Source: Natronogracilivirga saccharolytica
GTDB lineage: Bacteria > Bacteroidota > Rhodothermia > Balneolales > Natronogracilivirgulaceae
Reading direction: 5' to 3'
Assembly: GCF_017921895.1 (NCBI RefSeq)
Contig: NZ_JAFIDN010000002.1
Coordinates: 310,001 to 374,000 of the forward strand
Length of the DNA: 64,000 nt
Part shown: in pieces, positions 15,404 through 54,875 of the stretch
How positions within the stretch are numbered: position 1 is the first letter of the stretch
Layout of the letters: each line of letters starts with the position of its first letter
Notes under the pieces: generated by a model
What the model saw: the letters and a program-made list of their open reading frames with translations, nothing else
The model's database searches: none
What the model was told of the DNA's origin: nothing
Made by a program: the position numbers and the translations under genes

Positions 15404-15666
15404 GGCTGCCGCCTTTTATTAACAGTGATGATGGAGACCGGGTGTATGATAATATAAATGAATTGCGGTGTCTTTTATTGACATTATAAATACCACACAG
15501 GAAAAAGTCAGCTGTTAAGCAGTGTTAATCAAAAGATATCACCAAATATTTATGATGTATGAAGAATAGTAATTTATAATGGATATAAATGCTTTTTTAT
15601 ATTATTATGGTAGTAATAGTATTGAAGCAGAAAGCGCTTTTTTCAACTATTTAAACGGTGATTACG
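15404..15666. promoter_or_regulatory. AT-rich divergent control region between hypF and hoxF
   Basis: This 263-bp stretch lies between the divergent starts of hypFCDE and hoxFUYHW and is much more AT-rich than the genes beside it. It contains TTGACA at 15478-15483, a TATAAT at 15575-15580 without a well-placed -35 box, and a 10-bp palindrome AAAGCGCTTT at 15631-15640 just ahead of hoxF. None of these is proven. The position makes it the likely joint control region of hydrogenase and maturation genes. No sigma-54 type -24/-12 pair was seen. Confidence 0.4.
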
Positions 15667-17472
15667 ATGGAAGAAAGTATTGCATCCACACTCGAGAAGT
15701 ATCACCACGATCCCACCCGCCTGATGGATATTCTCATTGATGTGCAAAGCGAGTTCAGCTGCATCAGTGATTCCGCAATCAAGCAGATTTCCCGCGGACT
15801 TGATATATCGATAGCGGATGTTGAGCAGACGCGTTCGTTTTACCACTTTTTTTCAAAAAGACATACTGGCGAATTCTCCATCTTTTTGAATACGAGCGTG
15901 AATGCCTACATGATGGGACGTGATGCCGTTGCGCGGACCTTTGAGCAAGAAGCCGGCATACCGTTCAATGAAGTGACCCCGGACGGGCTGATCGGACTTT
16001 TTGATACGTCGTGTATCGGCATGAGTGATCAGGAACCCGCTGCCATCATCAACGGCAAGATCTTTCCCAACCTCACCCCCTTCCGGGTCAAGGAGCTGAT
16101 CCGTGATATCAGGGCCGGTAAAAGTATGGAGGAACTGGTCGTGGAAGGCTACGGGGACGGCGAAAACAGCAACGAGGACATTCGCGCCGTTGTAAACAAC
16201 AACATCAGGAAAATCGGACCGGTACTGGATCCGCAATATCGTCCCGGTGATGTGATCTGGAAAATACTTCCGGAAATGTCACCAGACAAGGTTATTGCTG
16301 AAATCAAGAAATCGAATATCCGTGGACGTGGCGGTGCCGGCTTTCCGACAGGTATGAAATGGGAGCTCGCCAGGCAGACAGAATCCGATGAAAAGTACAT
16401 CATATGCAATGCGGATGAGGGTGAGCCGGGCACGTTCAAGGACCGGGTGATTCTGACAGAGCGCCCCAAACTGCTGCTCGAAGGCATGGTTATCGCCGCA
16501 TATGCAACAGGAGCAAAAAAAGGCATATTGTATGTCCGGCATGAATACAAATACCTGAAAACGTATCTCGAGAACCTGATTAAGGGTGCCCACGAACGCA
16601 ATCTCATGGGCAAAGACATCGCAGGAATCAAGGGATTCGAATTTGATGTGCGTATTCAGTACGGCGCAGGTTCCTATGTGTGCGGTGAAGAATCGGCATT
16701 GATCGAATCGGCGGAAGGCAAGCGCGGAGAACCGCGTGACAAGCCTCCGTTTCCGGTAGAGCGCGGGTATCTGGGCAAGCCAACGGTAGTGAATAATGTT
16801 GAGACCTTCTGCTCCGCGGTGAAGGTGCTGCTCAACGGTGCGGACTGGTACCGGTCTTTCGGCACAAAAGATTCCACAGGCACAAAAGTGCTGAGCATAT
16901 CCGGAGACTGCCGGTATCCCGGAGTTTATGAAGTTGAGTGGGGATTTACGGTGCGTGATCTTTGCGAGATGTCCGGTGCTGTGGATGTGAAGGCAGTGCA
17001 GGTTGGCGGGCCGTCCGGTTCGCTCGTCGGTCCGGAAGATTTTGACCGGACCCTTTGCTTTGCTGACCTGTCAACCGGCGGATCGCTGATCATGTTCAAT
17101 TATTCCAGAGATCTGCTTCAGGATGTCGTGCTCAACTTCACTTCGTTCTTTATTGAGGAATCATGCGGCTCCTGCTCTACCTGCCGGGTGATGCCGGTTA
17201 TCCTGCGCGACAAATTGCAGAAAATTCTCAATGCACGCGGAGTGAAAAGCGATGTCAGCGATATGCTTGAATGGGCGAAAGTGCTCAAATCAAGCAGGTG
17301 CGGACTTGGCCAGACTGCGGCTAATCCGATTGTGACAAGTATCCGGAACTTCCCTGATCTGTACGACCAGAAGATCAGAGGCAAGGATGATTATGATACC
17401 GGTTTTGATCTGAACAGAGCTACCCGGGATGCCATGGCTGCAGCCGGAAGACTGCCGGTCAACGGGGGCTGA
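15667..17472 (+). CDS. hoxF: NAD-reducing hydrogenase diaphorase subunit HoxF (first hydrogenase)
   Basis: This flavoprotein exchanges electrons with NAD(H). It starts at the ATG at 15667 behind a GGTG site; the upstream GTG at 15658 is less likely. The roughly 600 residues match the Ralstonia-type HoxF, a NuoE-like domain fused to a NuoF-like one. In numbering from the GTG, the N-terminal domain (1-185) lacks the four-Cys pattern for a 2Fe-2S cluster and keeps only C119 in that area. FMN site GRGGAGFPTGMKW is at 223-235, NAD site GAGSYVCGEES at 337-346, and a 4Fe-4S cluster at C503, C506, C509 and C548. It heads the hoxFUYHW operon. Confidence 0.93.
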   Translation: MEESIASTLEKYHHDPTRLMDILIDVQSEFSCISDSAIKQISRGLDISIADVEQTRSFYHFFSKRHTGEFSIFLNTSVNAYMMGRDAVARTFEQEAGIPFNEVTPDGLIGLFDTSCIGMSDQEPAAIINGKIFPNLTPFRVKELIRDIRAGKSMEELVVEGYGDGENSNEDIRAVVNNNIRKIGPVLDPQYRPGDVIWKILPEMSPDKVIAEIKKSNIRGRGGAGFPTGMKWELARQTESDEKYIICNADEGEPGTFKDRVILTERPKLLLEGMVIAAYATGAKKGILYVRHEYKYLKTYLENLIKGAHERNLMGKDIAGIKGFEFDVRIQYGAGSYVCGEESALIESAEGKRGEPRDKPPFPVERGYLGKPTVVNNVETFCSAVKVLLNGADWYRSFGTKDSTGTKVLSISGDCRYPGVYEVEWGFTVRDLCEMSGAVDVKAVQVGGPSGSLVGPEDFDRTLCFADLSTGGSLIMFNYSRDLLQDVVLNFTSFFIEESCGSCSTCRVMPVILRDKLQKILNARGVKSDVSDMLEWAKVLKSSRCGLGQTAANPIVTSIRNFPDLYDQKIRGKDDYDTGFDLNRATRDAMAAAGRLPVNGG

Positions 17473-17487
17473 ATATTCATCCTGCGA

Positions 17488-17515
17488 CCGGCGGCGGAAG
17501 GAATCCAACCGCCGG
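17488..17515 (+). other. Hairpin in the hoxF-hoxU gap
   Basis: CCGGCGG (17488-17494) and CCGCCGG (17509-17515) can pair as a 7-bp GC stem with a 14-nt loop in the 85-bp gap after hoxF. No T-run follows. It may stabilise or process the operon transcript, or be incidental. Confidence 0.35.
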
Positions 17516-17557
17516 GAAGTGTGAACCGTAACATTGCATTAACATAAGAGATTACAT

Positions 17558-18253
17558 ATGAGCAGCCTTAACAGATTTAACCTCGACGGTGAGAAGTGCA
17601 TGGCCTGGGAAGGCGCCACGATTGTTGACGCTGCCAGGGAGAATGACAAGTATATCCCCACACTTTGCAACCTTGAGGGGGTGCCGCCCAAAGGCGCCTG
17701 CCGCGTGTGCACCGTCAAGGTGAACGGCAAGCTTATGACGGCGTGCACTACAAAAGTAACCCAGGGCATGCAGGTGGAAAGCGACACACCCGAACTGAAC
17801 GACCTGCGAAAATCGATAGTGGAAATGATGTTTGTAGAAGGAAATCATCTGTGCCCATCCTGCGAGAAAAGCGGTGATTGTGAGCTGCAGGCTCTGGGCT
17901 ACCGCTACAAGATGACCGTACCCCGCTATCCGTACTTTTTCCCGAAACGGGACATCGACTCCACCCATCCCAAAATTATCAAGGACCACAACCGGTGCAT
18001 TCTTTGCAAGCGATGTATCCGGGCTATAAAGGATAAAAACGGACAAAGTATTTTTGCATTTCTGGGGCGTGGCTTTGACACAAAAATCTATGTGGATCCG
18101 GATCTCGCGGAAAATCTGACCGATGAACTGGCCGATAAATCCGTAGAGGTTTGTCCGGTCGGCGCCATTATGAAGCGCGGTGTCGGGTTCAAAACACCGA
18201 TAGGCCAGCGCCGCTATGACCATCAGCCGATAGGAAGTGATATTGAGAAATAA
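17558..18253 (+). CDS. hoxU: Hydrogenase diaphorase iron-sulfur subunit HoxU (first hydrogenase)
   Basis: HoxU relays electrons between the hydrogenase module and HoxF. An N-terminal plant-type 2Fe-2S domain has C37, C48, C51 and C63. The NuoG-like cluster ligands H97, C99, C102 and C108 follow. Then CILCKRC (C147, C150, C153) and a single distal C199 form one ferredoxin-type 4Fe-4S site. The second ferredoxin-type cluster present in the other HoxU of this window is missing: the matching segments read IRAIKDK and ADKSVEVCP. The predicted complement is therefore one 2Fe-2S and two 4Fe-4S clusters, as in the soluble Ralstonia type. The 231-residue length fits, and a GGAGG site for hoxY follows closely. 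Confidence 0.92.
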   Translation: MSSLNRFNLDGEKCMAWEGATIVDAARENDKYIPTLCNLEGVPPKGACRVCTVKVNGKLMTACTTKVTQGMQVESDTPELNDLRKSIVEMMFVEGNHLCPSCEKSGDCELQALGYRYKMTVPRYPYFFPKRDIDSTHPKIIKDHNRCILCKRCIRAIKDKNGQSIFAFLGRGFDTKIYVDPDLAENLTDELADKSVEVCPVGAIMKRGVGFKTPIGQRRYDHQPIGSDIEK

Positions 18254-18268
18254 ACGGAGGTGAAAATT

Positions 18269-18820
18269 ATGAAAAAGCCCGTCGTTGCCACAGCTTCGCT
18301 GGCCGGATGTTTTGGGTGTCACATGTCCCTGCTGGACATTGACGAGCGCATTCTGGATCTGATCGAGCTGGTGGATTTCAACAAATCCCCGATAACTGAT
18401 ATCAAAAGTTTTACCGGAAAATGTGATATCGGGCTGATCGAAGGGGGATGCTGTCTGGATGAAAATGTGCATGTGCTCAAGGATTTCCGGAAACATTGCC
18501 GGATTCTGATTTCTGTCGGAGAGTGTGCTATTATGGGCGGTTTGCCGGCGATGCGCAACGGTATTCCGGTACAGGAGTGCCTGGAAGAAGCATACATCAG
18601 CGGCCCGTCGGTCAAGGATTCCAATCCGGAGAGAATCATACCGAATGACAAGGAGCTTCCGGTGCTGCTGGATCGTGTTTACCCTTGTCACGAAGTGGTC
18701 AAAATGGACTATTTCCTGCCCGGGTGTCCGCCAGATGCCGATCTCATCTGGAATGCCCTGACAGCCTTGCTTGAAAATCGAGAGATAGATCTTCCATACG
18801 AAGTATTCAAATTTGACTGA
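18269..18820 (+). CDS. hoxY: NiFe hydrogenase small subunit HoxY (first hydrogenase)
   Basis: This small subunit carries the 4Fe-4S cluster next to the NiFe site. The ATG at 18269 is chosen because GGAGG sits eight bases before it; the in-frame GTG at 18260 overlaps that site. Cluster ligands counted from this start are C14 and C17 (AGCFGC), C86 (GECA) and C153 (LPGCPP). It has no Tat signal and is short (183 residues), as in cytoplasmic group 3 enzymes. It lies between hoxU and hoxH. Confidence 0.94.
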   Translation: MKKPVVATASLAGCFGCHMSLLDIDERILDLIELVDFNKSPITDIKSFTGKCDIGLIEGGCCLDENVHVLKDFRKHCRILISVGECAIMGGLPAMRNGIPVQECLEEAYISGPSVKDSNPERIIPNDKELPVLLDRVYPCHEVVKMDYFLPGCPPDADLIWNALTALLENREIDLPYEVFKFD

Positions 18821-18873
18821 CAATATTGCAGTTAATAATCTGATAAAAAGTATTTGCAACCGAAGGTGTCTTT

Positions 18874-20349
18874 ATGGGACAGAAAATCACAATTTCTCCA
18901 GTTACCCGTGTTGAAGGACACGGCAAGGTGACCATCCATCTGAACGACAAAGGGCAGGTTACACAAAGCCGCCTGCACATTGTAGAATTCCGCGGCTTCG
19001 AGCGCTTTGTTCAGGGTCGGCCCTATTGGGAGGCGCCTGTGCTGGTGCAGCGCCTGTGCGGCATTTGTCCGGTGAGCCATCATCTCGCCGCAGCGAAAGC
19101 CATGGACGTCATCGTTGGTGCAGGTACGGGTGACGGACTTACCCCGACGGCCGACAAGGTGCGCCGCCTGATGCACTACGGACAGCTCTTCCAGTCTCAT
19201 TCCCTCCATTTTTTCCACCTCGTCTCCCCGGATATTCTTCTTGGCATAGATGCGGATCCGGCAATCCGGAACGTGATTGGCGTTGCAAAGTCATCCGAAT
19301 ACAAAGACCTGGCAGTTCAGGGGGTGATGATGCGCAAGTTTGGTCAGGAAATCATTCAGGCCACGGCAGGTAAAAAAATCCACGGAACCGGGGCGGTGCC
19401 CGGAGGTGTGAACAAGAGCCTGATTCCGGAAGACAGGGACCGGTTTCTGAATGGCGAAGACCCGATGAATATTGACAAAATGATCGAATGGGCGGAAGGT
19501 GCCATCGCACTGTTCCTTGATTATCACAAGAAGCACAAGGAGATGGTGGACAACTTCTCCAAATTTCCCTCCAACCATCTGAGCCTGGTCGGCAATGACG
19601 GGGCGCTTGATCTGTACCACGGCCGTCTGCGAGCGGTGGATCATGAGGGCAAGAAAATCCTGAATGACATTGATTATCAGAATTATCTGGATTATATCGG
19701 CGAAGAGGTGCGCTCCTGGAGCTACATGAAGTTTCCGTATCTTACGAATGTCGGCAAAGAGGAAGGATGGTACCGGGTGGGACCGCTAGCCCGGCTCAAT
19801 ACCTGTGATTACATTCCGACGCCCAAAGCGCAGAAAGCCTTTGAAACCTACAAGGCGTACACCGACGGCAAGCCGAACAACATGTGCATGCACACGCACT
19901 GGGCACGGCTCATTGAAACACTGTTTGCAGCCGAAATGATGAAGGAGCTGCTCAATGATCCGGATATCACGGGAAGCGACATCGAAGTTAAGGGTGATAA
20001 GATATTTGAGGGCATCGGCTTGCTGGAAGCGCCGCGCGGCACGCTTTTTCATCACTACCGCATCAATGAGTTCGACCAGATCACCATGGCCAATCTGATT
20101 GTCTCGACCACCAACAACAACGAGCCTATGAACCGGGCGGTCGGACAGGTGGCGAGGGAGCAGATGAACGGTCAGAAGGAGATTACGGAACCGATGATGA
20201 ATGCGGTGGAGGTGGCGATCCGCGCCTATGATCCGTGTCTGAGCTGTGCCACTCATGCGCTGGGCCAGATGCCGCTTGAGCTTGAGCTTTATGATGCAAC
20301 AGACCGGCTGATTGATCAGAAAGCCCGCTATATTGACACACCCGGCTGA
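18874..20349 (+). CDS. hoxH: NiFe hydrogenase large subunit HoxH (first hydrogenase)
   Basis: This catalytic subunit binds the NiFe centre that splits or forms H2. The L1 motif RLCGICPVSHH gives ligands C62 and C65, and the L2 motif DPCLSCATH gives C455 and C458. After H461 a 30-residue tail beginning ALGQMP should be removed by an endopeptidase after nickel insertion. The N-terminal TRVEGHGKVT is typical. The length of 491 residues and the soluble neighbours place it in group 3d (bidirectional NAD-linked). The protease gene hoxW follows 24 bp later. Confidence 0.96.
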   Translation: MGQKITISPVTRVEGHGKVTIHLNDKGQVTQSRLHIVEFRGFERFVQGRPYWEAPVLVQRLCGICPVSHHLAAAKAMDVIVGAGTGDGLTPTADKVRRLMHYGQLFQSHSLHFFHLVSPDILLGIDADPAIRNVIGVAKSSEYKDLAVQGVMMRKFGQEIIQATAGKKIHGTGAVPGGVNKSLIPEDRDRFLNGEDPMNIDKMIEWAEGAIALFLDYHKKHKEMVDNFSKFPSNHLSLVGNDGALDLYHGRLRAVDHEGKKILNDIDYQNYLDYIGEEVRSWSYMKFPYLTNVGKEEGWYRVGPLARLNTCDYIPTPKAQKAFETYKAYTDGKPNNMCMHTHWARLIETLFAAEMMKELLNDPDITGSDIEVKGDKIFEGIGLLEAPRGTLFHHYRINEFDQITMANLIVSTTNNNEPMNRAVGQVAREQMNGQKEITEPMMNAVEVAIRAYDPCLSCATHALGQMPLELELYDATDRLIDQKARYIDTPG

Positions 20350-20898: not shown

Positions 20899-21882
20899 AT
20901 GAAACTGTCGACACGTTATCTTGGACTCGAGTTGCGAAATCCGCTGGTCATGAGCGCATCGCCACTCAGCAGCAATATGGAAAATCTTCGTGCATGTGAT
21001 GAACACGGAATTGGCGCCGTGGTCTTCCAGTCCCTGTTCGAGGAGCAGATCCAGAATGAAATGGACATGATGCTGGATAAGGATGACATGTATTTCTGGT
21101 ATCCGGAAGCCGCTGAACTGGTAAAGGAGATCACAGGCGACCAGATGATCAGGCCCTATCTAAAGCGGATAGAGACTGCGAAAAAGGAGGTTTCAATGCC
21201 GGTGATCGCAAGCATCAACTGCCATAGTGCCGGCAGCTGGACCGCATTCGCCAAACAGATTGAGGATGCCGGAGCAGATGCCCTGGAGCTCAATATCGCG
21301 ACGCACCTGCCTTACGAAGATGAGATGGATGACCGCACAATTGAGCAGATACAGTCGGATATTGTCAGAGCAGTCAAAAAACAGACCAGCATACCGGTAG
21401 CGGTGAAAATGGGTCCGTATTACACCAATATCATCCGCGCCGCACGAAAACTGACGGATGCAGGCGCTGACGGCTTGGTTCTTTTCAACCGGTTTTATCA
21501 GCCGGATATCGACATTGAAAAAATTGCTTTAGGCTCTGACAATTACATGAGTGCTCCGGAGGAAATGCTTCAGTCACTCAGGTGGATAGGCATTCTTTCC
21601 CCGCAGCTGACGTGCGATTTTGCCGCATCAACCGGCATCCACAGCTATGAACAGGTGATCAAGCAGCTTCTGGCCGGTGCAACGGTCACCCAGATCTGCA
21701 CAACGCTCTACAAGCGGGGTTTTGATTATATTCCGTGGATACTGGAGGATCTCAGGGGATGGATGAAAGAGAAGGGCTACGCTTCGGTGGATGAATTCCG
21801 CGGAATCATTGCGGATGACAGACTGAGCTCGCCCAAATTTGAGCAAATTCAGTTTATCAGGAAAAACACGGTTCTTGACTGA
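20899..21882 (+). CDS. Dihydroorotate-dehydrogenase-like FMN protein in the hox operon
   Basis: The 327-residue protein is a TIM-barrel flavoprotein of the dihydroorotate dehydrogenase superfamily: N-terminal LGLELRNPLVMSASPLS, VIASINCHS, VAVKMGP with K170, and the C-terminal phosphate-binding GAT segment. The pyrimidine enzymes carry an N-x-S-C-P-N loop; here that position reads NIATHLP (132-138), so orotate chemistry is doubtful. The gene follows hoxW by 21 bp with a strong GGAGG site, so it belongs to the hydrogenase operon. A role in electron transfer from the hydrogenase to an unknown oxidised substrate is inference. Confidence 0.8.
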   Translation: MKLSTRYLGLELRNPLVMSASPLSSNMENLRACDEHGIGAVVFQSLFEEQIQNEMDMMLDKDDMYFWYPEAAELVKEITGDQMIRPYLKRIETAKKEVSMPVIASINCHSAGSWTAFAKQIEDAGADALELNIATHLPYEDEMDDRTIEQIQSDIVRAVKKQTSIPVAVKMGPYYTNIIRAARKLTDAGADGLVLFNRFYQPDIDIEKIALGSDNYMSAPEEMLQSLRWIGILSPQLTCDFAASTGIHSYEQVIKQLLAGATVTQICTTLYKRGFDYIPWILEDLRGWMKEKGYASVDEFRGIIADDRLSSPKFEQIQFIRKNTVLD

Positions 21883-21938: not shown

Positions 21939-22901
21939 TTAGTGGTTTTTGACCGCTTTCAGAGATTTCAGCCAGTCGGTCCAGGTGTCCATGCCTTCTC
22001 CTGTGTATGCCGATACCTCGAAGAAACGTATGCCGGGGTTGATGCGCCGGGCGTATTCCCTGGCTTTTTCAAGGTCAAAAGGCACATGCGGCAGCAGATC
22101 GATCTTGTTGATTATGCAGTAGTCCGCATTCCGGAAAATGGTGGGGTATTTTGCCGGCTTGTCATCGCCTTCGGGAACGCTGAACATAACGATCCGGTGC
22201 GACTCGCCGAGGTCGAAGAGCGCCGGACAGACAAGGTTTCCGACATTTTCAATCAGCAGCAACGACTCCGGTCCGGGATCAAGCTGCTTCATTGCGCTGT
22301 TGATCATTGAGGCATCCAGATGACATCCGCTGCCGGTATTGATCTGCACAACCGGCACGCCGGTGGCATCAATACGCTCGGCATCATTCATGGTCTGCTG
22401 ATCACCCTCGATGACAAAAAACGGGATTTTATCTTTGAGCTTCCCAAGGGTTTTTTCCAGCAGGGTTGTTTTTCCCGCGCCCGGTGAACTGATGAAATTC
22501 AGGGCGGTTATCCCTTTGGCCTCAAGATAGCCCCTGTTGCGCTCGGCCAGCAGATTGTTGTGCGATAAGATATCCTGCTCCAGACGTATTTCACGGGCTT
22601 TGGGCGAATCCTGATGTCCGTGATGATGCTCATGATTGTTATCATGGTGGTGATGATTGCCGTGGTGGTGAGCATGAATGTGACCGGTACGATCATGATG
22701 GTGATGATGATGGTCATGATGCACATGATCATGGCCATGCTCGTGAGCCCCGTGTTGGCCATGGTTGTGCGTATGTTGACCATGGGGACCGTGATGGTGG
22801 TGTGTCCCGTGGTGATGCTCATGGCCGTTGTCGTGTTTTTGTCCTGGCCGGCGAATGGTTACGCCGCCTTCGGTATCGCTGCATCCGCAAGTTCCGCACA
22901 T
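21939..22901 (-). CDS. hypB: Nickel-inserting GTPase HypB with long histidine-rich domain
   Basis: HypB delivers nickel to the hydrogenase large subunit with HypA, using GTP. It opens with MCGTCGC, the high-affinity nickel motif. Residues 23-97 then hold about 40 histidines in 75 residues, a likely nickel store. The GTPase domain follows: P-loop SSPGAGKTTLLEKT, EGDQQTMNDAERI, the metal-site GSGCHLDA, and the NKIDLLPH guanine motif. The total of 320 residues is long because of the His tract. It is the last gene of the fusion gene-hypA-hypB operon, separated from hypA by 134 bp with no other gene. Confidence 0.96.
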   Translation of the reverse strand: MCGTCGCSDTEGGVTIRRPGQKHDNGHEHHHGTHHHHGPHGQHTHNHGQHGAHEHGHDHVHHDHHHHHHDRTGHIHAHHHGNHHHHDNNHEHHHGHQDSPKAREIRLEQDILSHNNLLAERNRGYLEAKGITALNFISSPGAGKTTLLEKTLGKLKDKIPFFVIEGDQQTMNDAERIDATGVPVVQINTGSGCHLDASMINSAMKQLDPGPESLLLIENVGNLVCPALFDLGESHRIVMFSVPEGDDKPAKYPTIFRNADYCIINKIDLLPHVPFDLEKAREYARRINPGIRFFEVSAYTGEGMDTWTDWLKSLKAVKNH

Positions 22902-23035: not shown

Positions 23036-23377
23036 TCAGACCACGCTCAGTGATGCAACACGCAGCTCCTTGCCCTGTATGATTTCCAGAGAAGCCGACG
23101 GGCACTCCGGACACAAATCTATATAGTCGGATACCGGGTACTCCCTGCCGCACGTGCGGCACGATCCGCGCGCGGGGATCTCCCGGATCGAAATCCTGGC
23201 CTGCTCTGCCACCGAATTGCGGACTGCTTCCTGCAATGCAAACTCAAGGGCATCCACTACAACGCCCGACAGCGCCCCCACGTCAATCTGCAGATCTGTA
23301 ACCCGCTCTGCACCGGCCTTCCGGACTTCCAAAGTGGCAATATCAACGATATTTATCGCAATGGAGAGCTCATGCAT
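23036..23377 (-). CDS. hypA: Nickel metallochaperone HypA
   Basis: HypA binds nickel through His2 and the N-terminus and hands it over with HypB. The protein starts MHELSIA, as required, and carries a zinc site with two CxxC pairs, C73/C76 (CRTC) and C89/C92 (CPEC). Its 113 residues match the family. It begins nine bases after the stop of the TrmO-FmdE fusion and precedes hypB, so all three are probably co-transcribed. It should serve both hydrogenases of the window. Confidence 0.95.
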   Translation of the reverse strand: MHELSIAINIVDIATLEVRKAGAERVTDLQIDVGALSGVVVDALEFALQEAVRNSVAEQARISIREIPARGSCRTCGREYPVSDYIDLCPECPSASLEIIQGKELRVASLSVV

Positions 23378-23386
23378 GCAGACACC

Positions 23387-24592
23387 TCATGTTTGGTTTT
23401 CCAGACGGATGCCGCCGCCGTCCAGCGTTCCGGGACGAACACGGGCGCAGTCAAAGCAAAGAATGGCAGCGTTGTTGTGAGAATTTACCGGTTGCGGGGC
23501 TGCGGCGGATGGTGTTCCTGCGGATGTCTCCGGTTTTGATTCAGAACCCCCTGATCCGGCATTCGCTGGTACACGGACGGTACGGGTCGCCATGACATCT
23601 TCACCACAGTGATGGCACTTTTCGCTGTGATGCGACGGTGCATAATCCGGCACCGTCACGGTTACCCTTTTCGTATCAAACAACGTGTCAAAATCAAGTT
23701 CCAGGGTGCCGAAGGAGCGTTCTGTGCCACTTTGCTTGTAGGCCGCAACTGCTTCTTCAGAACGATCCTTATTTTTAATCACCTGCTCATAGAGCTCCTC
23801 GAATCCGGGAAAGGAAGACCGGATGTAATCGCGGGACTCCGGCCGCGAGATGATCCGCAGGCCATTGCCGCTTCGGTCAGCCAGCGTAAAGGCGGTTTTG
23901 CCGACATCCCGGAAAATGAGTCCGTTGTTTCCGAGAGAACATCCGGTAACTATCTGTACACCATCGGCAAAACAATTATTGGTTTCGACGATGGCGAGCA
24001 GGTCTTCCAGCCCGTCGGATTCCGGCCCGTTTTCATCGCGCAGATGACGCATGGCATGTGTGGCCGCCATAACTCCCATGGCCAGCCCGGGACAGTAATG
24101 TCCGTGCATGGCTGCAGCAGTCATGAGCAGTGACCGGGTGTCATTGGCCATGATCTGTTTGCGGATCGCCCGGCGTGGCTGTTTCTTCCGGATGGACTCG
24201 TGAACCGGTCCGGCAGCATCCAGCAGAGAGGTGTCAGGCGCCTTGATGTCCAGCACCGGTGTATTGTCAACTGCATCGAGACCGGTAACATAAAGAGTGT
24301 TGCCCTCACGGCGTTCCAGCTGTACTGTGGTGATGCCGATAGGATTGGGACGGACGGGCGACCGGCTGGCAAACGCGCCGTCAGGTTCCCGGCTGCGGGA
24401 TTGATGAAAGAAAAAAATGATGTCAATGTATTGATGCTGCTCCAGTCCGTGCAGACCTGCGGTCATTTCGTCATTCAGGATGATTCGGCTGGTTTTGTGC
24501 TTGTATTCATAAGCCCTGTCAACATCGGTTGCCTCATTCCGGATGACACCGACGGGAGTAAAAGTGCAGGAAGTTGTGTTCATGGCTGGCAT
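23387..24592 (-). CDS. Fusion of a TrmO-type methyltransferase domain with an FmdE domain
   Basis: Residues 8-140 match the TrmO/TsaA (tRNA m6t6A methyltransferase) family: FTPVGVIRNE, GLEQHQYIDIIFFFHQS, ASRSPVRPNPIG, and TPVLDIKAPD. Residues 150-312 match FmdE, named after subunit E of formylmethanofuran dehydrogenase: MHGHYCPGLAMG (162-173), NNCFADGVQ, TGCSLGNN and KTAFTL. A C-terminal zinc ribbon has CHHC at 326-329 and CFDC at 379-382. A Ser/Pro/Gly-rich stretch of roughly 40 residues is inserted between the two pairs. ATGs at residues 1 and 4 are both possible starts. It leads the hypAB operon. FmdE proteins outside methanogens have no settled role, so the function is unknown; metal or redox cofactor handling is a guess. 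Confidence 0.82.
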   Translation of the reverse strand: MPAMNTTSCTFTPVGVIRNEATDVDRAYEYKHKTSRIILNDEMTAGLHGLEQHQYIDIIFFFHQSRSREPDGAFASRSPVRPNPIGITTVQLERREGNTLYVTGLDAVDNTPVLDIKAPDTSLLDAAGPVHESIRKKQPRRAIRKQIMANDTRSLLMTAAAMHGHYCPGLAMGVMAATHAMRHLRDENGPESDGLEDLLAIVETNNCFADGVQIVTGCSLGNNGLIFRDVGKTAFTLADRSGNGLRIISRPESRDYIRSSFPGFEELYEQVIKNKDRSEEAVAAYKQSGTERSFGTLELDFDTLFDTKRVTVTVPDYAPSHHSEKCHHCGEDVMATRTVRVPANAGSGGSESKPETSAGTPSAAAPQPVNSHNNAAILCFDCARVRPGTLDGGGIRLENQT

Positions 24593-24725: not shown

Positions 24726-25940
24726 TCACACAAAAACCCCGGCAACCAGTGCTGCAACGACAATCAGCGGTGCCGGAATCTTGCCGGATGCGAGCAGTAT
24801 GACAGAGATAACAACGGCAATAATGTTTTCCGGTTGGAAGCCACTGGCCTGCATCAGGATAATTGCCGCTGAAGCAATGAGTCCCCCGGCAACGGCATTG
24901 ATCCCTTTCAAAGAAATACGGATAGCATGAATTTGCTTGAGCTGTTCCCATACGGGATAAACAAAATAGATCAGAAGCAAACCCGGCAGGAAGATACCGA
25001 TACCACCGGCCATGGCTCCCCCGATCTGCAACAAGGCTGTTCCGTCACGAGCCGCCATGCCACCGGCATAAGCGGCAAAACTGAACATCGGTCCGGGCAG
25101 TCCCTGAACCAGACCATAACCGGTCAGAAACTCTTCGTTGGACAGGTATTCCCGAATTTGAACCAGTTCGGAATGTATCAGGGGAATGACAACCTGTCCG
25201 CCGCCGAAGACAAGATATCCGTACCGGTAAAAATGCTCGAAAAGCTGAACAATCCGGTTATCGGATACTCCGGCCACAATCAGAGCGCAAAAAGCCACTG
25301 CTGCAAATATAATAAAGTATCTCCATGGTGGATTGAGCCGCACACGGTTCCAGATGTCCGATTCCCGGGAAACAAGAATACTGATCAGCCCGCCTGTGAT
25401 CAGCACGACGGGAAATATCCAGGGATCGCGGAGGAACCATGTTGTTGCGGCACCAAATAACAGGAGCAGAGCCGTGGTGGTGTCGTTAACAACCTTTTTT
25501 CCAATCCGGAAGGTTGCAACAATGATAAATCCAACGGCCATCGGTCCGATGAATCGCAGGATGTCATCAGAAATCTCCCGGGCTGCGAGAAACTGATAAA
25601 GAAAGGAAAGTGCGGTCATTGCAGTGAGTACCGGCAAAGCCCAGACAAGCATTGTCAGGAAAGCGAGCAGGGGTCCTCCGGTTTTGTGCCCGACGGCGAT
25701 TATGGTCTGTGTACTGGTCGGACCCGGCAGTATGCTGCATAGTGCTATAAGTTCTACCAGTTCGTTTTCGGTCAGGTATTTTTTCCTGGCTACCAGCTGA
25801 TCAAGAAAAACACTGTAATGCGCTTCAGGCCCGCCGTAGGCACCCAGCGAGCAGATAAGGACATCCTTCAGAAAGGTACTTCTTTTTACAGGGTGCTCCG
25901 GTCCTGCTTCTTGTTCACCGGTTTGCGCAGAAACATTCAT
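24726..25940 (-). CDS. chrA: Chromate transporter, long two-domain form
   Basis: This is an inner-membrane protein of the CHR family, which exports chromate in resistant bacteria. The 404 residues contain two homologous halves with about ten to twelve hydrophobic segments. The N-terminal half has the family motif around LGAYGGPEAHY and LCSILPGPTSTQT; the second half repeats it as VFGGGQVVIPLI and GYGLVQGLPGPMF. It is transcribed leftward, upstream of the iron-type ABC genes' far end and 133 bp from the fusion gene. Nothing in the context ties it to hydrogen metabolism. Some family members move sulfate or other anions, so the substrate is tentative. Confidence 0.87.
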   Translation of the reverse strand: MNVSAQTGEQEAGPEHPVKRSTFLKDVLICSLGAYGGPEAHYSVFLDQLVARKKYLTENELVELIALCSILPGPTSTQTIIAVGHKTGGPLLAFLTMLVWALPVLTAMTALSFLYQFLAAREISDDILRFIGPMAVGFIIVATFRIGKKVVNDTTTALLLLFGAATTWFLRDPWIFPVVLITGGLISILVSRESDIWNRVRLNPPWRYFIIFAAVAFCALIVAGVSDNRIVQLFEHFYRYGYLVFGGGQVVIPLIHSELVQIREYLSNEEFLTGYGLVQGLPGPMFSFAAYAGGMAARDGTALLQIGGAMAGGIGIFLPGLLLIYFVYPVWEQLKQIHAIRISLKGINAVAGGLIASAAIILMQASGFQPENIIAVVISVILLASGKIPAPLIVVAALVAGVFV

Positions 25941-26033: not shown

Positions 26034-26831
26034 TTAATTATTGGTATGGTTTGAGTGCTGTGAAGCAGGTATCTCCCGCCGGGGCAGAACCCAGATGTAT
26101 TTGTCATCACGACGCACCTGCACCTGCACTCCGTACAGTTTCCGGATGTTGTTTTCGGTAATTATATCCGGTCCGCCATCGGCAAAAAGGCGCCCCTCTT
26201 TCATCATGAGAATCCGGGAGCTGTACATTGCGGCGGTATTAATATCGTGAATCGCCATGATGATGGTTATACCGCTCCGGGCCAGTGACTCCAGAAGCTC
26301 CAGCACCTCCATCTGGTATCTGAGGTCGAGGTTGGCTGTGGGTTCATCAAGCAGAAGGATTTTGGGTTCCTGAGCCAGTGCTCGTGCGATGAAAACCCGC
26401 TGCTGCTGTCCGCCACTCAGTTTGGTGATGTCGCGATCGGCAATATGTTCAAGGTTCAAGTCGTGCAGAATGCGGGAGGTTACCTGCAGATCGTGCTGAC
26501 CGGGTTTCCAGTGGATGTGAGGTTTGCGCCCGAGAAGCACCGCATCAAAAACCCGTGCCGGTACCATTTTTTGCTCTGTTTGCGGAACATAGGCGATCAT
26601 CCCGGCCCGTTCACGGGGACGGATATCCTGCAGTGTGCGATCGCCGAGTATGACACTTCCCTTTTGCGGTACCTGAATTCCGTTAAGACACTTTATCAGT
26701 GTACTTTTTCCGGAGCCGTTCGGGCCCACCAGCGCCGCAAATTCGCCGTCTTCAAAGTTCGTGGCAATATCCTGCAGTACCGGTATCCCTTTCTCGTATT
26801 GAAACGTGATATGTTCAAGTGTGATGCGCAT
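26034..26831 (-). CDS. ABC transporter ATP-binding protein (metal-chelate type)
   Basis: The protein hydrolyses ATP to drive import through the FecCD-type permease encoded just upstream. Counting from the ATG at 26831, Walker A GPNGSGKST is at 36-44, the signature LSGGQQQR at 138-145 and Walker B ILLLDEPT at 158-165, followed by the H-loop AIHDIN. The upstream in-frame start at 26867 is a TTG and adds a dozen unconserved residues, so it is rejected. The 265 residues fit FecE/BtuD/FhuC proteins. It is the last gene of the TonB receptor-binding protein-permease-ATPase set. Confidence 0.92.
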   Translation of the reverse strand: MRITLEHITFQYEKGIPVLQDIATNFEDGEFAALVGPNGSGKSTLIKCLNGIQVPQKGSVILGDRTLQDIRPRERAGMIAYVPQTEQKMVPARVFDAVLLGRKPHIHWKPGQHDLQVTSRILHDLNLEHIADRDITKLSGGQQQRVFIARALAQEPKILLLDEPTANLDLRYQMEVLELLESLARSGITIIMAIHDINTAAMYSSRILMMKEGRLFADGGPDIITENNIRKLYGVQVQVRRDDKYIWVLPRREIPASQHSNHTNN

Positions 26832-26888
26832 GTGTGATAATGTATGAGAGTCACGGTAAAGCGGCAATGTCGGGTTGATGCGTGCGTG

Positions 26889-27971
26889 TCAGGTCCAGTA
26901 ACCCCGTCCGACCCCCCTGATCAGCAGAAACAGGAACAGCGGTGCGCCAATGAACGATGTCAGAATGCCGACGGGCAGGATGACCGGGGAGAAAAGGGTG
27001 CGTGCCACCGTATCGGAAAGCAGCAAAAACATGCCTCCGAAAACTGCGGTGGCCGGAATGAGAAACGATTCGTCCCCGCCGATTATACGCCGGACAATGT
27101 GCGGAACCACCAGTCCTACAAACGCAATTATCCCGTAATAGCTGACCACAACAGCTGTGGCCAGGGAAGCGGCAAGCATTCCGCTCAGCCGGATACGGTC
27201 CGGATTTACGCCAACACTGCGTGCATATTCGTCCCCGGATTGCAGCGCCTTGTAATTCCAGGTCATAAACATGAAGAAAACCATTATGGGCGTGAGGATC
27301 AGCGCAAGCATGCCGATGTCGGTCCAGCCGGCACGACCCAGGTCGCCGAACATCCAGAAAACGATAGCGGCGAGTTCGATATCCGTGGCGATGTACTGCA
27401 GGGCCGATAATCCGGCGCTGAACAGCGATCCGATTGCGATGCCGGCCAGGATCAGGATTTCCGGGGTAATCCCGCGGAATCTGGCAATGGCCAGGATCAG
27501 ACCGGTACCTGCCAGACTCCATATAAACGCCGAACCCATCACCGCGTAGCGATCCTGAAATACCGAAAAAAGACGAATGGCTGCTTCTCCGTCACCGCCG
27601 GCAATGTGTCCGGAACCCAGGAAGACGATGCCGAAAGCGGCTCCGAAAGCGGCGGCGCCCGATATCCCGAGCGTGTAGGGTGAGGCCAGCGGGTTTCGCA
27701 GCAGGCTCTGCATCACAGCTCCTGAAACCGATAGTGCGAGTCCGCCAAGCAGTGCTGCCAGCACCCTCGGAAGCCGGATATGTATAACAATCTGTTCCGT
27801 GACGGTATCACCGCGTCCGGTTACGGCCAGGATCACATCGCGCCATGACAGTCCCGCAGCACCGCTGGACATGGCATAGACAGCGACAAGCAGTGTCGCC
27901 AGGAAGATCAATGCCAGAAACAGCAGTCGCTTGCGGATATGATGATGATATTGGCGGATGACCTGGTTCAT
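26889..27971 (-). CDS. FecCD-family ABC permease
   Basis: This inner-membrane permease belongs to the iron-siderophore, heme and cobalamin importer family. The 360 residues show roughly ten hydrophobic helices. Family signatures include IRLPRVLAALLGGLALSVSGA near 75-100, NPLASPYTLGISGAAAFGA and, near the C-terminus, FVGLVVPHIVRRIIG, the loop that contacts the ATPase. It lies 57 bp upstream of the ATPase start and 248 bp downstream of the binding-protein gene, a gap that holds a 29-bp direct repeat. Confidence 0.93.
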   Translation of the reverse strand: MNQVIRQYHHHIRKRLLFLALIFLATLLVAVYAMSSGAAGLSWRDVILAVTGRGDTVTEQIVIHIRLPRVLAALLGGLALSVSGAVMQSLLRNPLASPYTLGISGAAAFGAAFGIVFLGSGHIAGGDGEAAIRLFSVFQDRYAVMGSAFIWSLAGTGLILAIARFRGITPEILILAGIAIGSLFSAGLSALQYIATDIELAAIVFWMFGDLGRAGWTDIGMLALILTPIMVFFMFMTWNYKALQSGDEYARSVGVNPDRIRLSGMLAASLATAVVVSYYGIIAFVGLVVPHIVRRIIGGDESFLIPATAVFGGMFLLLSDTVARTLFSPVILPVGILTSFIGAPLFLFLLIRGVGRGYWT

Positions 27972-28219: not shown

Positions 28220-29392
28220 TCACAGTTCACCGGACAGACTGCGAAGCCCGCCGTTCATGGTTCCGGACACCTGGTCATACACCCCCCGTCCCAAAAAAGC
28301 TTTGTAAACGGAGTCCGCTTTATCGGCCATGTCAATATCGTCGAACCGCCCGGGGTATAGTTGTTTGCCGGCATACCAGGCGTTGATGAGCATGTGCTCG
28401 TAGTTTGCGGCGTAGTTGTTGTAGGGCAGCAGACCGTAAACGCGGCCCTCCCCGATAGCGGAGAGGCCGTTATACAGCGGTGTGCCGGACCGGATTTCCG
28501 GCTGTACCACCTGCCAGCTCGATAAATCGACAAACAGCACATCCGGATTCCACATCAGAAGCTGTTCCTTGTCTATGAATGTGCCGTCTATGGGATTGAT
28601 AAGCTGTTCATCGAGATCTGCGGCGACATTGTCGATTCCGGCAAACCGGAACGGCGGATAATGAGGCTCGGTGGCATTGATGCCCTGTGCACCGCGATAG
28701 GATATGCCGCCGACATAGGCGCGCGGACGTTCACCGGAGTTTACATCTCCGGTGCGGTCTTTCAGATCGCGGATGGATGAGCGGATGAAGCGGGTAAGTT
28801 CTTCGGCACGCTCCTCCCTGCCAAGCACGCGCCCCATAAGTTCCAGCGACTCCAGAAGCACGCCGCGGCGTTCGGCAAAATCGCCGTAATCCAAGACCAC
28901 GACCGGGATGCCGGTTTGATTTTGCAGCTCATCCGCCTGTCCTGAAGTGGCGAATGTCATGAAGATAACATCCGGGCGGGCTGCAACCAGCAGCTCGGCA
29001 TCTCCTCCCATCAGCGGACCAATGACCGGACGTTCGCGCAGTTCGGGATGGGCGAACAGATAGGGCCGGTCGGCATTGCGTTCCGGCTCTTCAATCCCGG
29101 CAACCATATCAGATGCATTCAGCCAGGTAATCAAACGCAGCGCACCTGCGCGCAGGCCGATGATGCGTTCGGGCGTACGGTCGAATGTGATTTCACGACC
29201 GGCCATGTCGCGAACGGTTATGGAGGTATCTTCCCGGGCATCTGTGACGTCCCTTGCGGGTTCAGAAGAACTGCCGCCGTCGCGCCCACCGTTTTTGCAG
29301 GTCGATGTCACAAAAAGGAATGTGAGCAGGAGCGCAATGGCGGCCGTCATTTCCAGAAATCTTCCGTTGTTTTTGCTATTGCGGCCAGTCAT
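28220..29392 (-). CDS. Periplasmic metal-chelate binding protein of the importer (cobalamin/Fe3+-siderophore family)
   Basis: This class III binding protein (periplasmic-binding family PF01497) captures a metal complex. The signal segment is at about 15-30, with a possible but atypical lipobox before C32. The mature part shows RDMAGREITFDRTPERIIGL, PDVIFMTFA, a long central helix and GISYRGAQG with TEPHYPPF, a variant unlike classic FepB or BtuF. The last 17 bp of the receptor gene overlap its start, giving translational coupling. The substrate cannot be read from sequence. Siderophore iron, a corrinoid, a nickel chelate or an oxyanion (some relatives bind molybdate) are all possible. Confidence 0.85.
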   Translation of the reverse strand: MTGRNSKNNGRFLEMTAAIALLLTFLFVTSTCKNGGRDGGSSSEPARDVTDAREDTSITVRDMAGREITFDRTPERIIGLRAGALRLITWLNASDMVAGIEEPERNADRPYLFAHPELRERPVIGPLMGGDAELLVAARPDVIFMTFATSGQADELQNQTGIPVVVLDYGDFAERRGVLLESLELMGRVLGREERAEELTRFIRSSIRDLKDRTGDVNSGERPRAYVGGISYRGAQGINATEPHYPPFRFAGIDNVAADLDEQLINPIDGTFIDKEQLLMWNPDVLFVDLSSWQVVQPEIRSGTPLYNGLSAIGEGRVYGLLPYNNYAANYEHMLINAWYAGKQLYPGRFDDIDMADKADSVYKAFLGRGVYDQVSGTMNGGLRSLSGEL

Positions 29393-31508
29393 AACTTAGC
29401 GTCAGGTTCAGCATGCGGCCCGGAGACATGTCCTCGGTTGTTTCCATGCGGCGGTTATCAGCGATATCAAGAACCTCCAGTGACGCCGAAACTCCGTAAC
29501 CGATATCGCGGGCCACCATCAGATCAAATGTAACATAGCTGTCAAGTGATGCCGTGTTGTCATCGGATGTGTACTGCCGGCTTTTGTACAGGGCGGAAAG
29601 TCCGAACTTTGCAGGGGCGCCCCGCCACTGGAGGCGGCCTTTGATCTGATGTTCGGGCGAATAGGTCAGCCTGTTGCCTTCAAGGTCTTCGCGCTCGGGA
29701 AAGGACAGGATACGCGTGTGATTGTAGCCGTAGTTGGCACTCAGATGCAGGCGCTCCCCGGCAATCCAGTTAACGTCGAATTCGGCTCCGGCAACCTGCA
29801 CTGCGGAGACATTCTGGCGCTGATGAATCATCGGACCGTTTTCCCATAACCGGTCACCTGTGGCGACGTAATAGAGAAAATCACGGCCATAGGAGTAGAA
29901 CAGCGAAGGCGCCAGCTGCCAGCGCCAGTGGGGGCGCCATTCGCCGCCGGTTTCCCAGGTATCGACGGTCTCGGGTCCGAGGCGGGGATTGGCAATTTTC
30001 GGACCGACACGGCTCCAGCCGGTTCGGGTCAGGTCATCCAGTACCGAGGCGCGGAATCCCCTTCCGTATGACAAATAAGAAGAAGCATTCGGTTGTGGTG
30101 AAAAGCGAATAGCAATGCGGGGACTGAACGTGGACCAGGTGTGCTCATCCAGCTCGCCGTTCCAACCGGCAAAATCGCTGACCTCATCACCATCCGCCCA
30201 AAAATATCCGTCGTAAAAGCTGACGTGATCGTACCGGAGTCCGAGCTGCAAGTGCATCGTTTCGTCGCGCATGGAAATTTCGTCCTGCACGTATCCGGCC
30301 AGAAATCGCATGGTTCCCCGGTTGACGACCTGGTCAGGCGAGGTCTGATAAAAATCTCCGCCGTCAATAGAGCCGCGCCGGACATCGAATCCTGCCGTGA
30401 GTTCATGATTTGCGTTCCCGGTAAGCGACGGGATCGTTCCGGTCTGATGGAACAGATCGAGCGTCAGGCCCATGTCATCCCGGTCCGAGTCGACATCAAA
30501 CCGCTCATAGTTATCGCCGCGCATGCGCTCGCTGATCCGGAAATAGTCCTCACGCTGGAAAAATACGTTGAGCCGGTAGCCGAGATCGGCGCGCTCTCCC
30601 CTGGCCTGCAGCCTCATGCGTGTCATGTCAAAATTGCGATGCATTCCGTCCGGAGCCTGAATTTCCGTGCCCTCGCCACGCTTGTCGCGGTAAATATCCA
30701 GCCCGGCATCCAGTTCAAGAAGACTACCGGCCCGGTAGGTGGCCCGTCCCTGAACGCCGCCTTCCCGCAGGAATCGGGGGACACTGTATTCGTAGCCCGG
30801 TTCGGACCGAAGGGAGTCCGGGGTGGTGTTGTAGCCGTCACTGTAATTGAAGAAACCGCTGATGCGGAAATCGAACGAATCGGATGGGCGTCCGGAAAGC
30901 GTGAGGCTGCTTTTAGAGGTGTTGAACGTTCCGTACGATACAGCGGCGGATGCGGCAAGCGGCTCCTCCGGAGTTCTTGTGACAATGTTGATCACACCGC
31001 TCATGGCATTGCTTCCGTAAAGAGACGAACCGGGGCCTTTGAACACCTCGACCTGCTCGATGGTCCGGGTACTGATGCTGTTCCAGTTGACTCCTCCGGA
31101 ATCCGAGGTGTTTACCGGCATGCCGTCCAGCAGCACCAGTGTGCGGCTTTGCTCATCGGCGGAGATGCCGCGTATGCTGACGCGCGGGCGCATGGTAAAC
31201 ATACCCATGGAACTGTTGACATTGACACCGGAAACGGTACGGAGCTTGTCATCGAGGCCCCGGGCGGGTGTCAGATCCCAGTCACGTGACGACAGCACAT
31301 CAACCCTCGCCGGCACACTGCGTGCCGGGCGGGCTGTTTTTGTTGCGGTGATTTCGATGTCAAGAAATTTGTGAAAAAGCGTGTCGATGCGATCTGTTTC
31401 GGCTGTTGCATTACCCGGACTGGCTGACAGGGAACCGGAAAAGGCGAAAGCAGACAGCATCACCGGGATTATGGCAGGCACAGAAGACTTCAGTATCGTA
31501 CGTATCAT
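29376..31508 (-). CDS. TonB-dependent outer-membrane receptor
   Basis: This 22-stranded gated channel imports a scarce ligand using TonB energy. The 710 residues have a signal peptide (1-30), a plug at about 60-178 with EITATKTARPARSVPARVDVL at its start, SIRGISADEQSRTLVLLDG and VEVFKGPGSSLYGSNAMSGVINIVT. The barrel ends at LTLSYDWPQ with no terminal aromatic Phe. It lacks the N-terminal carboxypeptidase-like domain of SusC proteins, so it resembles siderophore, heme or corrinoid receptors. It is the first gene of the importer set. No cobalamin-riboswitch pattern was seen in the 117 bp upstream. Confidence 0.93.
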   Translation of the reverse strand: MIRTILKSSVPAIIPVMLSAFAFSGSLSASPGNATAETDRIDTLFHKFLDIEITATKTARPARSVPARVDVLSSRDWDLTPARGLDDKLRTVSGVNVNSSMGMFTMRPRVSIRGISADEQSRTLVLLDGMPVNTSDSGGVNWNSISTRTIEQVEVFKGPGSSLYGSNAMSGVINIVTRTPEEPLAASAAVSYGTFNTSKSSLTLSGRPSDSFDFRISGFFNYSDGYNTTPDSLRSEPGYEYSVPRFLREGGVQGRATYRAGSLLELDAGLDIYRDKRGEGTEIQAPDGMHRNFDMTRMRLQARGERADLGYRLNVFFQREDYFRISERMRGDNYERFDVDSDRDDMGLTLDLFHQTGTIPSLTGNANHELTAGFDVRRGSIDGGDFYQTSPDQVVNRGTMRFLAGYVQDEISMRDETMHLQLGLRYDHVSFYDGYFWADGDEVSDFAGWNGELDEHTWSTFSPRIAIRFSPQPNASSYLSYGRGFRASVLDDLTRTGWSRVGPKIANPRLGPETVDTWETGGEWRPHWRWQLAPSLFYSYGRDFLYYVATGDRLWENGPMIHQRQNVSAVQVAGAEFDVNWIAGERLHLSANYGYNHTRILSFPEREDLEGNRLTYSPEHQIKGRLQWRGAPAKFGLSALYKSRQYTSDDNTASLDSYVTFDLMVARDIGYGVSASLEVLDIADNRRMETTEDMSPGRMLNLTLSYDWPQ

Positions 31509-31625: not shown

Positions 31626-32105
31626 TTATTCGATAACTTCTGTAATAATGTCCTCTATTTCACTTGTAGCCCTGGCCATGACATCCTCTATGACACCGCT
31701 GAAGGAACGGGCAATTGCCTCATTGTCCATCCGGGATATGTAAGTGTTGCCGTTGCTTTTTTCGTAGACGGCAATGCGGCACGGCATCAGGGGTGAGATG
31801 ATCCGTTCGTCGTCGAGCTCAAGGATCCGGGCAGCATAGTGTGATGAACACAGTTCCAGTATCTGAATATTCTGAACGTCATGACCGTGACCGGCCAGAG
31901 TGGATTTCATGTCGTGTACGTTGACGATACCCCATCCGGCATCATCCACTTTCTTTTCAATCTGTTCGATGGTTGTGTCGAAGTCAAAACGGGAACGGTC
32001 TTCCATCAGGATGTGATCATCGGTGGAGCTGAAGGCGAAGATACCGGAGAAAATCAGTGCGAACAGAGCACCTGAAAATGTAAATAATGCTGTATTTTTA
32101 ATCAT
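31626..32105 (-). CDS. DUF302 domain protein with signal peptide
   Basis: The 159-residue protein has an N-terminal hydrophobic signal or anchor (about 4-26). It is followed by a DUF302 fold: RFDFDTTIEQIEKKVDDAGWG, then LCSSHYAARIL and the MPCRIAVYEKSNG strand. DUF302 proteins are small, often periplasmic and of unknown biochemistry; several occur beside thiol or metal genes. It is 117 bp upstream of the TonB receptor on the same strand and could share its transcript. The two cysteines C86 and C108 (approximate positions) are the only chemically notable residues. Confidence 0.82.
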   Translation of the reverse strand: MIKNTALFTFSGALFALIFSGIFAFSSTDDHILMEDRSRFDFDTTIEQIEKKVDDAGWGIVNVHDMKSTLAGHGHDVQNIQILELCSSHYAARILELDDERIISPLMPCRIAVYEKSNGNTYISRMDNEAIARSFSGVIEDVMARATSEIEDIITEVIE

Positions 32106-53616: not shown

Positions 53617-54332
53617 GTTCATCCGTAAAAATCAAAACCCTTATCATTGACGACCGGCACGTTGGTGCACGGGAAGATCAGAACATTCTTGAAGTGGCAA
53701 GGGAAAACGGAATCGATATACCCACGCTTTGCAGCATCGACGGTCTGTCAGCATACGGCGGATGCCGGCTCTGCATGGTGGAGGTTGCCGGTACACCAAA
53801 ACTGCTTCCGGCCTGCATGACAACGGTGGAAGAGGGTATGCAGGTTTTCACCCAAACCGAACGCCTCCGGAAGCTTCGCAAGAATCTGCTTGAACTCTAT
53901 TTTTCAGAGCGAAATCATGTCTGCTCGGTGTGCGTGTCCAACGATAATTGTGACCTGCAGGCGATGGCACAGAAAGTGGGAATGGATCATGTCCACTATC
54001 CCTATATCTATCCCGATCTGGAGGTGGATGTGACCAGTGAGCGCTTTGTCATGGATCATAACAGGTGCATCATGTGTACCCGGTGCGTGCGGGTGTGTGA
54101 TGAGATCGAAGGTGCCCACACGCTTGATATCAAAGACCGCGGTATTGAAGCCAGAATAGTTACTGACCTCGATCAGCCATGGGGTGAATCCGAAACATGC
54201 ACGCTCTGCGGAAAATGTGTACACGTCTGTCCGACAGGCGCGCTTTTTGAAAAAGGAAAATCGGTGGGTGAAATGTCGAAACGCAGGCAATTCCTGCCTT
54301 ATCTGTCATTAATGCGGGGAGAGAAGAAATGA
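53613..54332 (+). CDS. hoxU: Hydrogenase diaphorase iron-sulfur subunit HoxU (second hydrogenase)
   Basis: This 239-residue electron-relay subunit carries all the NuoG-type clusters: 2Fe-2S (C40, C51, C54, C68), His-Cys 4Fe-4S (H102, C104, C107, C113), and two ferredoxin-type 4Fe-4S sites (C152/C155/C158 with C206, and C196/C199/C202 with C162). This is one cluster more than in the first hydrogenase's HoxU. Overlapping start and stop codons join it to both hoxF and hoxY. Confidence 0.93.
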   Translation: MSSSVKIKTLIIDDRHVGAREDQNILEVARENGIDIPTLCSIDGLSAYGGCRLCMVEVAGTPKLLPACMTTVEEGMQVFTQTERLRKLRKNLLELYFSERNHVCSVCVSNDNCDLQAMAQKVGMDHVHYPYIYPDLEVDVTSERFVMDHNRCIMCTRCVRVCDEIEGAHTLDIKDRGIEARIVTDLDQPWGESETCTLCGKCVHVCPTGALFEKGKSVGEMSKRRQFLPYLSLMRGEKK

Positions 54333-54859: not shown

Positions 54860-54875
54860 AAGGAGATGTTGATTC

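Follow-up and report, generated by a model that had tools for sequence, protein, structure and literature searches.

The FmdE family (PF02663) takes its name from a methanogen enzyme whose solved structure is without FmdE (PMC11237513). A solved FmdE protein held mixed zinc and nickel at a His-His-Cys-Cys site, the C-terminal C4 zinc module, a feature of part of the family, is a treble clef in the solved proteins, and metal-ion transporters neighbour most members of the family (PMC2954224). An architecture joining PF02663 to UPF0066 was already noted in 2010 (PMC2954224), and FmdE–tRNA methyltransferase fusions were noted in Methanosarcinales and Archaeoglobales in 2024 (PMC11237513). Neither report assigned a function to the architecture, the 2024 authors proposing for the fusions a regulatory role in formylmethanofuran dehydrogenase, and neither made a link to nickel.

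TrmO (YaeB, UPF0066) is a tRNA m6t6A37 methyltransferase. The SAM contacts are R82, D111 and K122 in AF0241 and Q25, R92, D125 and K136 in E. coli numbering, and a C-terminal domain with a DPRxxY motif is required by E. coli for tRNA methylation; archaeal TrmO homologues are without this domain, and m6t6A was not found in archaeal tRNA (PMC4132733). On the transport side, the nickel ABC importer NiuBDE of Helicobacter pylori depends on the cytosolic metal-binding chaperone SlyD (PMC7840056), and NikR sites of the form GTGTTAC-N13/14-GTAACAC have been described from delta-proteobacteria (PMC545781).

Here we analyse a 64,000-nucleotide stretch of the genome of Natronogracilivirga saccharolytica (contig NZ_JAFIDN010000002.1, positions 310,001 to 374,000; hereafter the window), which holds a gene for a protein with a domain pair identical to that of the published fusions. 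The original prediction stated that no function was described for this architecture; this still holds for the function, but the architecture itself had been published (PMC2954224; PMC11237513).

The TrmO–FmdE fusion protein

The gene (23387..24592, minus strand), defined by its open reading frame, translation and Pfam matches, encodes a protein of 401 residues (P0001) with TrmO_N at residues 31–117 (E 4.8e-22) and FmdE at residues 162–305 (E 6.7e-32; 110.8 bits against a cut-off of 22.9). The predicted fusion of a TrmO-type domain, FmdE and a set of four cysteines in one open reading frame is therefore real; its strand had not been stated. An AlphaFold2 model based on a 28-row alignment has a mean pLDDT of 83.3, and Foldseek searches with this model find both parent folds. 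A weak likeness to siderophore-interacting proteins (E 0.05–0.09) was kept out of the evidence.

The FmdE core domain (residues 162–305; 23678..24109, minus strand) was delimited from Pfam, the alignment and Foldseek, where it matches 2gvi (E 7.3e-10) and 2glz (E 6.3e-9). Its metal site, H163-x-H165-x-C167...C207, is equivalent to the zinc- and nickel-holding site of the solved protein, and all four ligands are identical in 28 of 28 aligned proteins. The C-terminal zinc module (C326xxC329 and C379xxC382; 23447..23617, minus strand) keeps its four cysteines in 27 of the 28 rows. Within it lies an insert rich in Ser/Pro (Ser/Pro/Gly/Ala; approximately residues 338–374; 23471..23581, minus strand), which is predicted to be disordered from the alignment and from the pLDDT, with values below 50 at residues 352–372. 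As the insert is short or absent in most relatives in the alignment, we regard it as an embellishment in the style of the Balneolaceae. The module had been predicted to be a zinc ribbon whose two CxxC pairs are split by a Ser/Pro-rich insert; the pairs and the insert are as described, but in the solved relatives the fold is a treble clef and not a ribbon. Overall, the window protein has the core fold, the His-His-Cys-Cys site and the C-terminal C4 module in common with 2gvi, 2glz and 3d00, and differs from these three unfused proteins in its N-terminal TrmO domain and its specific nickel context.

The TrmO-like barrel (UPF0066, class VIII SAM; residues 8–118; 24239..24571, minus strand) was assigned from NCBIfam, conservation and Foldseek. 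The best structural match is 2nv4 (AF0241 with bound SAM, E 5.4e-10), and 7btz, the TrmO of P. aeruginosa, is also found (E 3.5e-9). The NCBIfam TrmO equivalog model, TIGR00104, covers residues 8–118 with 85.4 bits, which is under its cut-off of 93.25. R77, D106 and K117, the equivalents of three of the SAM contacts, are invariant in 22 of 22 fusions. The contact Gln, on the other hand, is replaced in most of them: 13 of the 22 have Asp in its place and the window protein has Arg (R26/A27 at the equivalent place), so that catalysis by the domain is not assured; this Gln is retained in the unfused Thermococcal TrmO neighbours described below. Thus, while P0001 shares with TrmO/YaeB the β-barrel SAM domain and the three contact equivalents, it differs in its score below the equivalog cut-off, in the replaced Gln and in its C-terminal part, which is FmdE, the TrmO C-terminal domain with DPRxxY being absent from P0001. 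Residues 138–143, between the TrmO and FmdE domains, form a nearly invariant [NS]PRxxI stretch that is also present in the FmdE-only locus L029. This stretch is reminiscent of DPRxxY in E. coli TrmO, though the resemblance could be due to chance.

These features bear on whether the fusion might still be a tRNA m6t6A37 methyltransferase, with FmdE only tethering it or regulating it by metal. In the window genome no TrmO_N protein other than P0001 was found, P0001 keeps the three SAM residues, and the TrmO domain of another fusion, at locus L070, clears the equivalog cut-off (187.7 against 93.25 bits). However, as the protein lacks the tRNA-binding C-terminal domain, and as several genomes with the fusion or the gene pair (those of L018, L021 and L023 and several Thermococci) hold a separate TrmO gene besides, we consider a tRNA role unlikely. 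The score of the window protein under TIGR00104 also argues against it, as does a cassette context ill-suited to a housekeeping tRNA gene.

The operon around the fusion gene

The fusion gene lies, as predicted, 9 bp upstream of hypA (23036..23377, minus strand; PF01155, TIGR00100) and is co-directional with it; hypB (21939..22901, minus strand; TIGR00073), with a His-rich N-terminus evident in its sequence, comes next. It had also been proposed that the fusion leads a hypAB operon. This was not borne out, since further co-directional genes are found upstream. In the direction of transcription these encode a TonB-dependent outer-membrane receptor (29376..31508; PF00593/PF07715), a PF01497 substrate-binding lipoprotein (28220..29392), an importer permease of the FecCD family (26889..27971; PF01032), a FepC-like importer ATPase (26034..26867; PF00005) and a ChrA-type chromate transporter family protein (24726..25940; PF02417), all on the minus strand. 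The best PDB match of the binding protein is 2etv (E 9e-77), and it matches MolA (HI_1472) at 4.8e-16. A ChrA-type gene separates the fusion from the importer ATPase gene in the window and likewise in the Balneolaceae loci L013, L014, L016 and L020.

Beyond the receptor gene, a DUF302 gene (31626..32105, minus strand; PF03625) occupies the position that NikR has in the relative L016; neither a NikR gene nor a NikR-type box was found near the operon within the window. On the other side of the operon, a dihydroorotate-dehydrogenase-like gene (20899–21882) stands after the hydrogenase protease, and such a gene is beside hypB in L013, L014, L016 and L017. The window also has a second HoxFUYH-like gene set (51967–56348) besides that at 15658–20349, as judged by eye from the translated reading frames.

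In architecture, the transporter of the window is like NiuBDE: its operon encodes a PF01497 binding protein together with a FecCD permease and an ABC ATPase, and NiuBDE likewise combines a periplasmic binding protein with permease and ATPase subunits. The cytosolic partners are unlike, SlyD being a prolyl-isomerase chaperone unrelated to FmdE, and neither FmdE nor TrmO has been reported for the H. pylori system.

Distribution of the fusion and the cassette

The fusion is found in Balneolaceae, Marinilabiliaceae, other Bacteroidota-type MAGs, Spirochaetota and several archaea, but it is rare: a phylum sample of 396 genomes yielded it only in the window genome and in G230. The constant partner in the fusion loci is the transporter, rather than hyp. 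The exceptions are L019 with no transporter adjacent, L027 with one of the ZnuABC type, L071, where just a TonB receptor and a binding protein are present, and contigs that break off too soon. The cassette, in which the TonB receptor, PF01497 binding protein, FecCD permease and ATPase are followed by FmdE or TrmO–FmdE, was seen in Balneolaceae, Marinilabiliaceae, Spirochaetota and several archaeal lineages.

In the Thermococcaceae-type loci (L031, L072–L087 and L100–L107) FmdE is unfused, and the binding-protein gene is directly preceded by FmdE or by FmdE and TrmO in 25 of 25 cases. In six of these (L072–L077) the gene between those for FmdE and the binding protein is a separate TrmO, which either overlaps FmdE or is at most 5 bp away from it, and four of the six genomes with such adjacent genes also hold another TrmO elsewhere. 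In L070 a fused gene stands at the corresponding position of the cassette. From the pattern in L070 and L072–L077 we conclude that TrmO and FmdE pair in two forms, fused and adjacent. In a tree of TrmO sequences L070 groups with the unfused Thermococcal neighbours (100/99), apart from the main fusion clade, and for the TrmO domain a single origin of all the fusions was rejected (p-AU 0.014). A single clade made up of the fusions and the unfused Thermococcal neighbours was not rejected (p 0.26), which leaves room for one TrmO subfamily associated with FmdE, in which genes were later split or joined. TrmO_N is also seen in a different setting in a Spirochaetales genome (G437), where a 1165-residue reading frame (L094:4878–8888) with an N-terminal TrmO_N and UvrA-type ATPase domains comes directly after a second TrmO_N gene.

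The combination of a TonB receptor with a PF01497 binding protein implies that the substrate is chelated. Metallophores such as the relatives of nicotianamine are known to be built from SAM, and the TrmO domain could on these grounds be imagined to make a SAM-derived nickelophore that is exported and then re-imported. Given that we recognised no further gene for metallophore biosynthesis in the cassette and that FmdE and TrmO are kept in archaea, which have no outer membrane to cross, this seems most improbable.

Nickel-specific neighbours and NikR-type operators

A NikR gene (NikR_C, Pfam) heads or adjoins the cassette in nine loci (L016, L021, L022, L023, L027, L031, L081, L100 and L105). 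In L016, from a Balneolaceae relative, the order is nikR-TonB-ABC-ChrA-fusion-hypA-hypB, such that NikR heads an operon of the window type. Genes for other nickel systems are found as well. LarE, LarB and LarC, all above their NCBIfam cut-offs, come before FmdE-FepBDC in L093, and in L069 the fusion is followed by CfbE-CfbD-CfbB/C-like genes, of which CfbD scores 404.9 bits against a cut-off of 268.4 while the CfbE-, CfbB- and CfbC-like genes are under their own cut-offs. Among the 25 Thermococcaceae-type loci, nine have hypA no more than 4 kb away.

Paired GTAACAC half-sites were sought across 860 kb of loci. Five exact pairs and 16 with one mismatch were observed, compared with 0 and 0.67 in shuffled sequences that kept 2-mers only in part, a count of 21 that overstates the number of independent events because many of the loci are close relatives. 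The pairs, mostly direct repeats, are at the first gene of the cassette in 19 of the 21 cases, from 220 bp inside to 75 bp upstream of the called start (for NikR in L016 and L021 the start was called too early); the other two are upstream of TonB-receptor genes. The loci with exact pairs include ones from Marinilabiliaceae, Spirochaetota and Thermoplasmatota. Taken with the neighbouring genes, this makes a nickel context of the cassette in the relatives very probable. In the window itself the metal would also be nickel, judging from the hypAB neighbours and from these relatives.

The name FmdE and the match of the binding protein to MolA raise the question of whether molybdate or tungstate might be the substrate of the cassette. 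FmdE first came to notice in operons of molybdenum formylmethanofuran dehydrogenase, and a fusion to a molybdopterin-binding domain has been reported (PMC2954224). The NikR, LarEBC, Cfb and HypAB neighbours and the NikR-type boxes are, however, specific to nickel, and 2etv, the closest solved relative of the binding protein, is annotated just as a putative iron-binding protein. We therefore think it very unlikely that either oxyanion is the substrate.

A broader possibility is that the fusion serves as an intake factor for cobalt and nickel, or for divalent metals in general, with a substrate that varies by lineage. In L068 there are CbiJ-CbiM-CbiQ and ATPase genes upstream, in L027 the fusion is paired with ZnuA/ABC-3 transport genes, and the solved FmdE site held zinc as well as nickel (PMC2954224). 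Yet L027 also has NikR and an exact pair of boxes, and a search for riboswitches (cobalamin, NiCo, Moco) gave no Rfam match in the window and just tRNAs in seven relatives. A general role of this kind appears rather unlikely.

Association with hydrogenase genes

The original prediction tied the fusion to a step in the hyp operon or in hydrogenase maturation. Among the fusion loci, however, hyp adjacency is limited to the Balneolaceae (the window, L013, L014, L016, L017 and L026). HypD was not found in the fusion-carrying genomes G430, G433–G436 and G230, nor in G438; the Marinilabiliaceae fusion genomes gave no HypD. A role in hydrogenase maturation only was accordingly rejected. Since homologues are mostly unlinked to hyp, which was the outcome named in advance as counting against the idea, the hyp-specific form fails and the metal form survives: our results support the suggestion that a step in metal handling has gone unrecognised, and NikR, HypA/HypB, LarEBC, the F430 genes and the operator half-sites, found with the cassette in separate lineages, sharpen it to nickel.

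Within the Balneolales HypD and FmdE are associated. In 60 genomes HypD is present in 8 of 10 with FmdE and in 7 of 50 without it (Fisher p 9e-5), and within the family in 8 of 10 against 2 of 10 (p 0.023), both p values being rough because the genomes are related and partly incomplete. We also considered whether the FmdE cassette replaces a CbiM-type importer. The Thermococci phylum sample showed no anticorrelation of FmdE with CbiM (p 0.45), so in the Thermococci FmdE is no simple substitute for an importer of the Cbi or Nik type.

Discussion

We propose that the fusion is probably the cytoplasmic component of a nickel-uptake cassette, in which FmdE has a role in nickel intake. The sequences show that it belongs to the cassette, that the cassette has a nickel-specific context and operators in the relatives, and that the metal ligands and most of the SAM residues are conserved. 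From this we infer that FmdE may be a nickel intake factor or chaperone, and the chemistry suggested here for the TrmO domain is likewise conditional. The TonB receptor and an ABC importer of the Niu/FepBDC type would carry a nickel complex into the cell, where the FmdE core would hold the nickel, or strip it from its ligand, at the His-His-Cys-Cys site and pass it on to its users. In the window these would be HypA and HypB, and elsewhere the Lar or F430 enzymes. The SAM-binding TrmO barrel, rather than serving tRNA, may act on the imported nickel ligand, for example by a methylation that leads to release of the nickel; alternatively, it may report the SAM status of the cell. That FmdE is a nickel intake family and its TrmO-fused form a SAM-dependent enzyme acting on the imported nickel complex is put forward tentatively, as one possible form of the proposal.

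No paper linking FmdE to NikR or to nickel uptake was found in a search without subscription papers, and the novelty of the link is provisional to that extent. Structures of FmdE proteins have been available since 2010, and the nickel context makes a direct test of their role possible. It also suggests caution with some TrmO annotations, which may not denote tRNA enzymes, especially for the short archaeal proteins without the C-terminal domain. The prediction is of a cassette for nickel uptake, common to bacteria and archaea and equipped with its own receiver in the cytosol; it would feed [NiFe] hydrogenases, the nickel-pincer cofactor of Lar and F430. If, in addition, the TrmO-fused form does act as an enzyme on the imported complex, a novel type of step would link transport across the membrane to the nickel chaperones, with FmdE and TrmO as partners in both bacteria and archaea.
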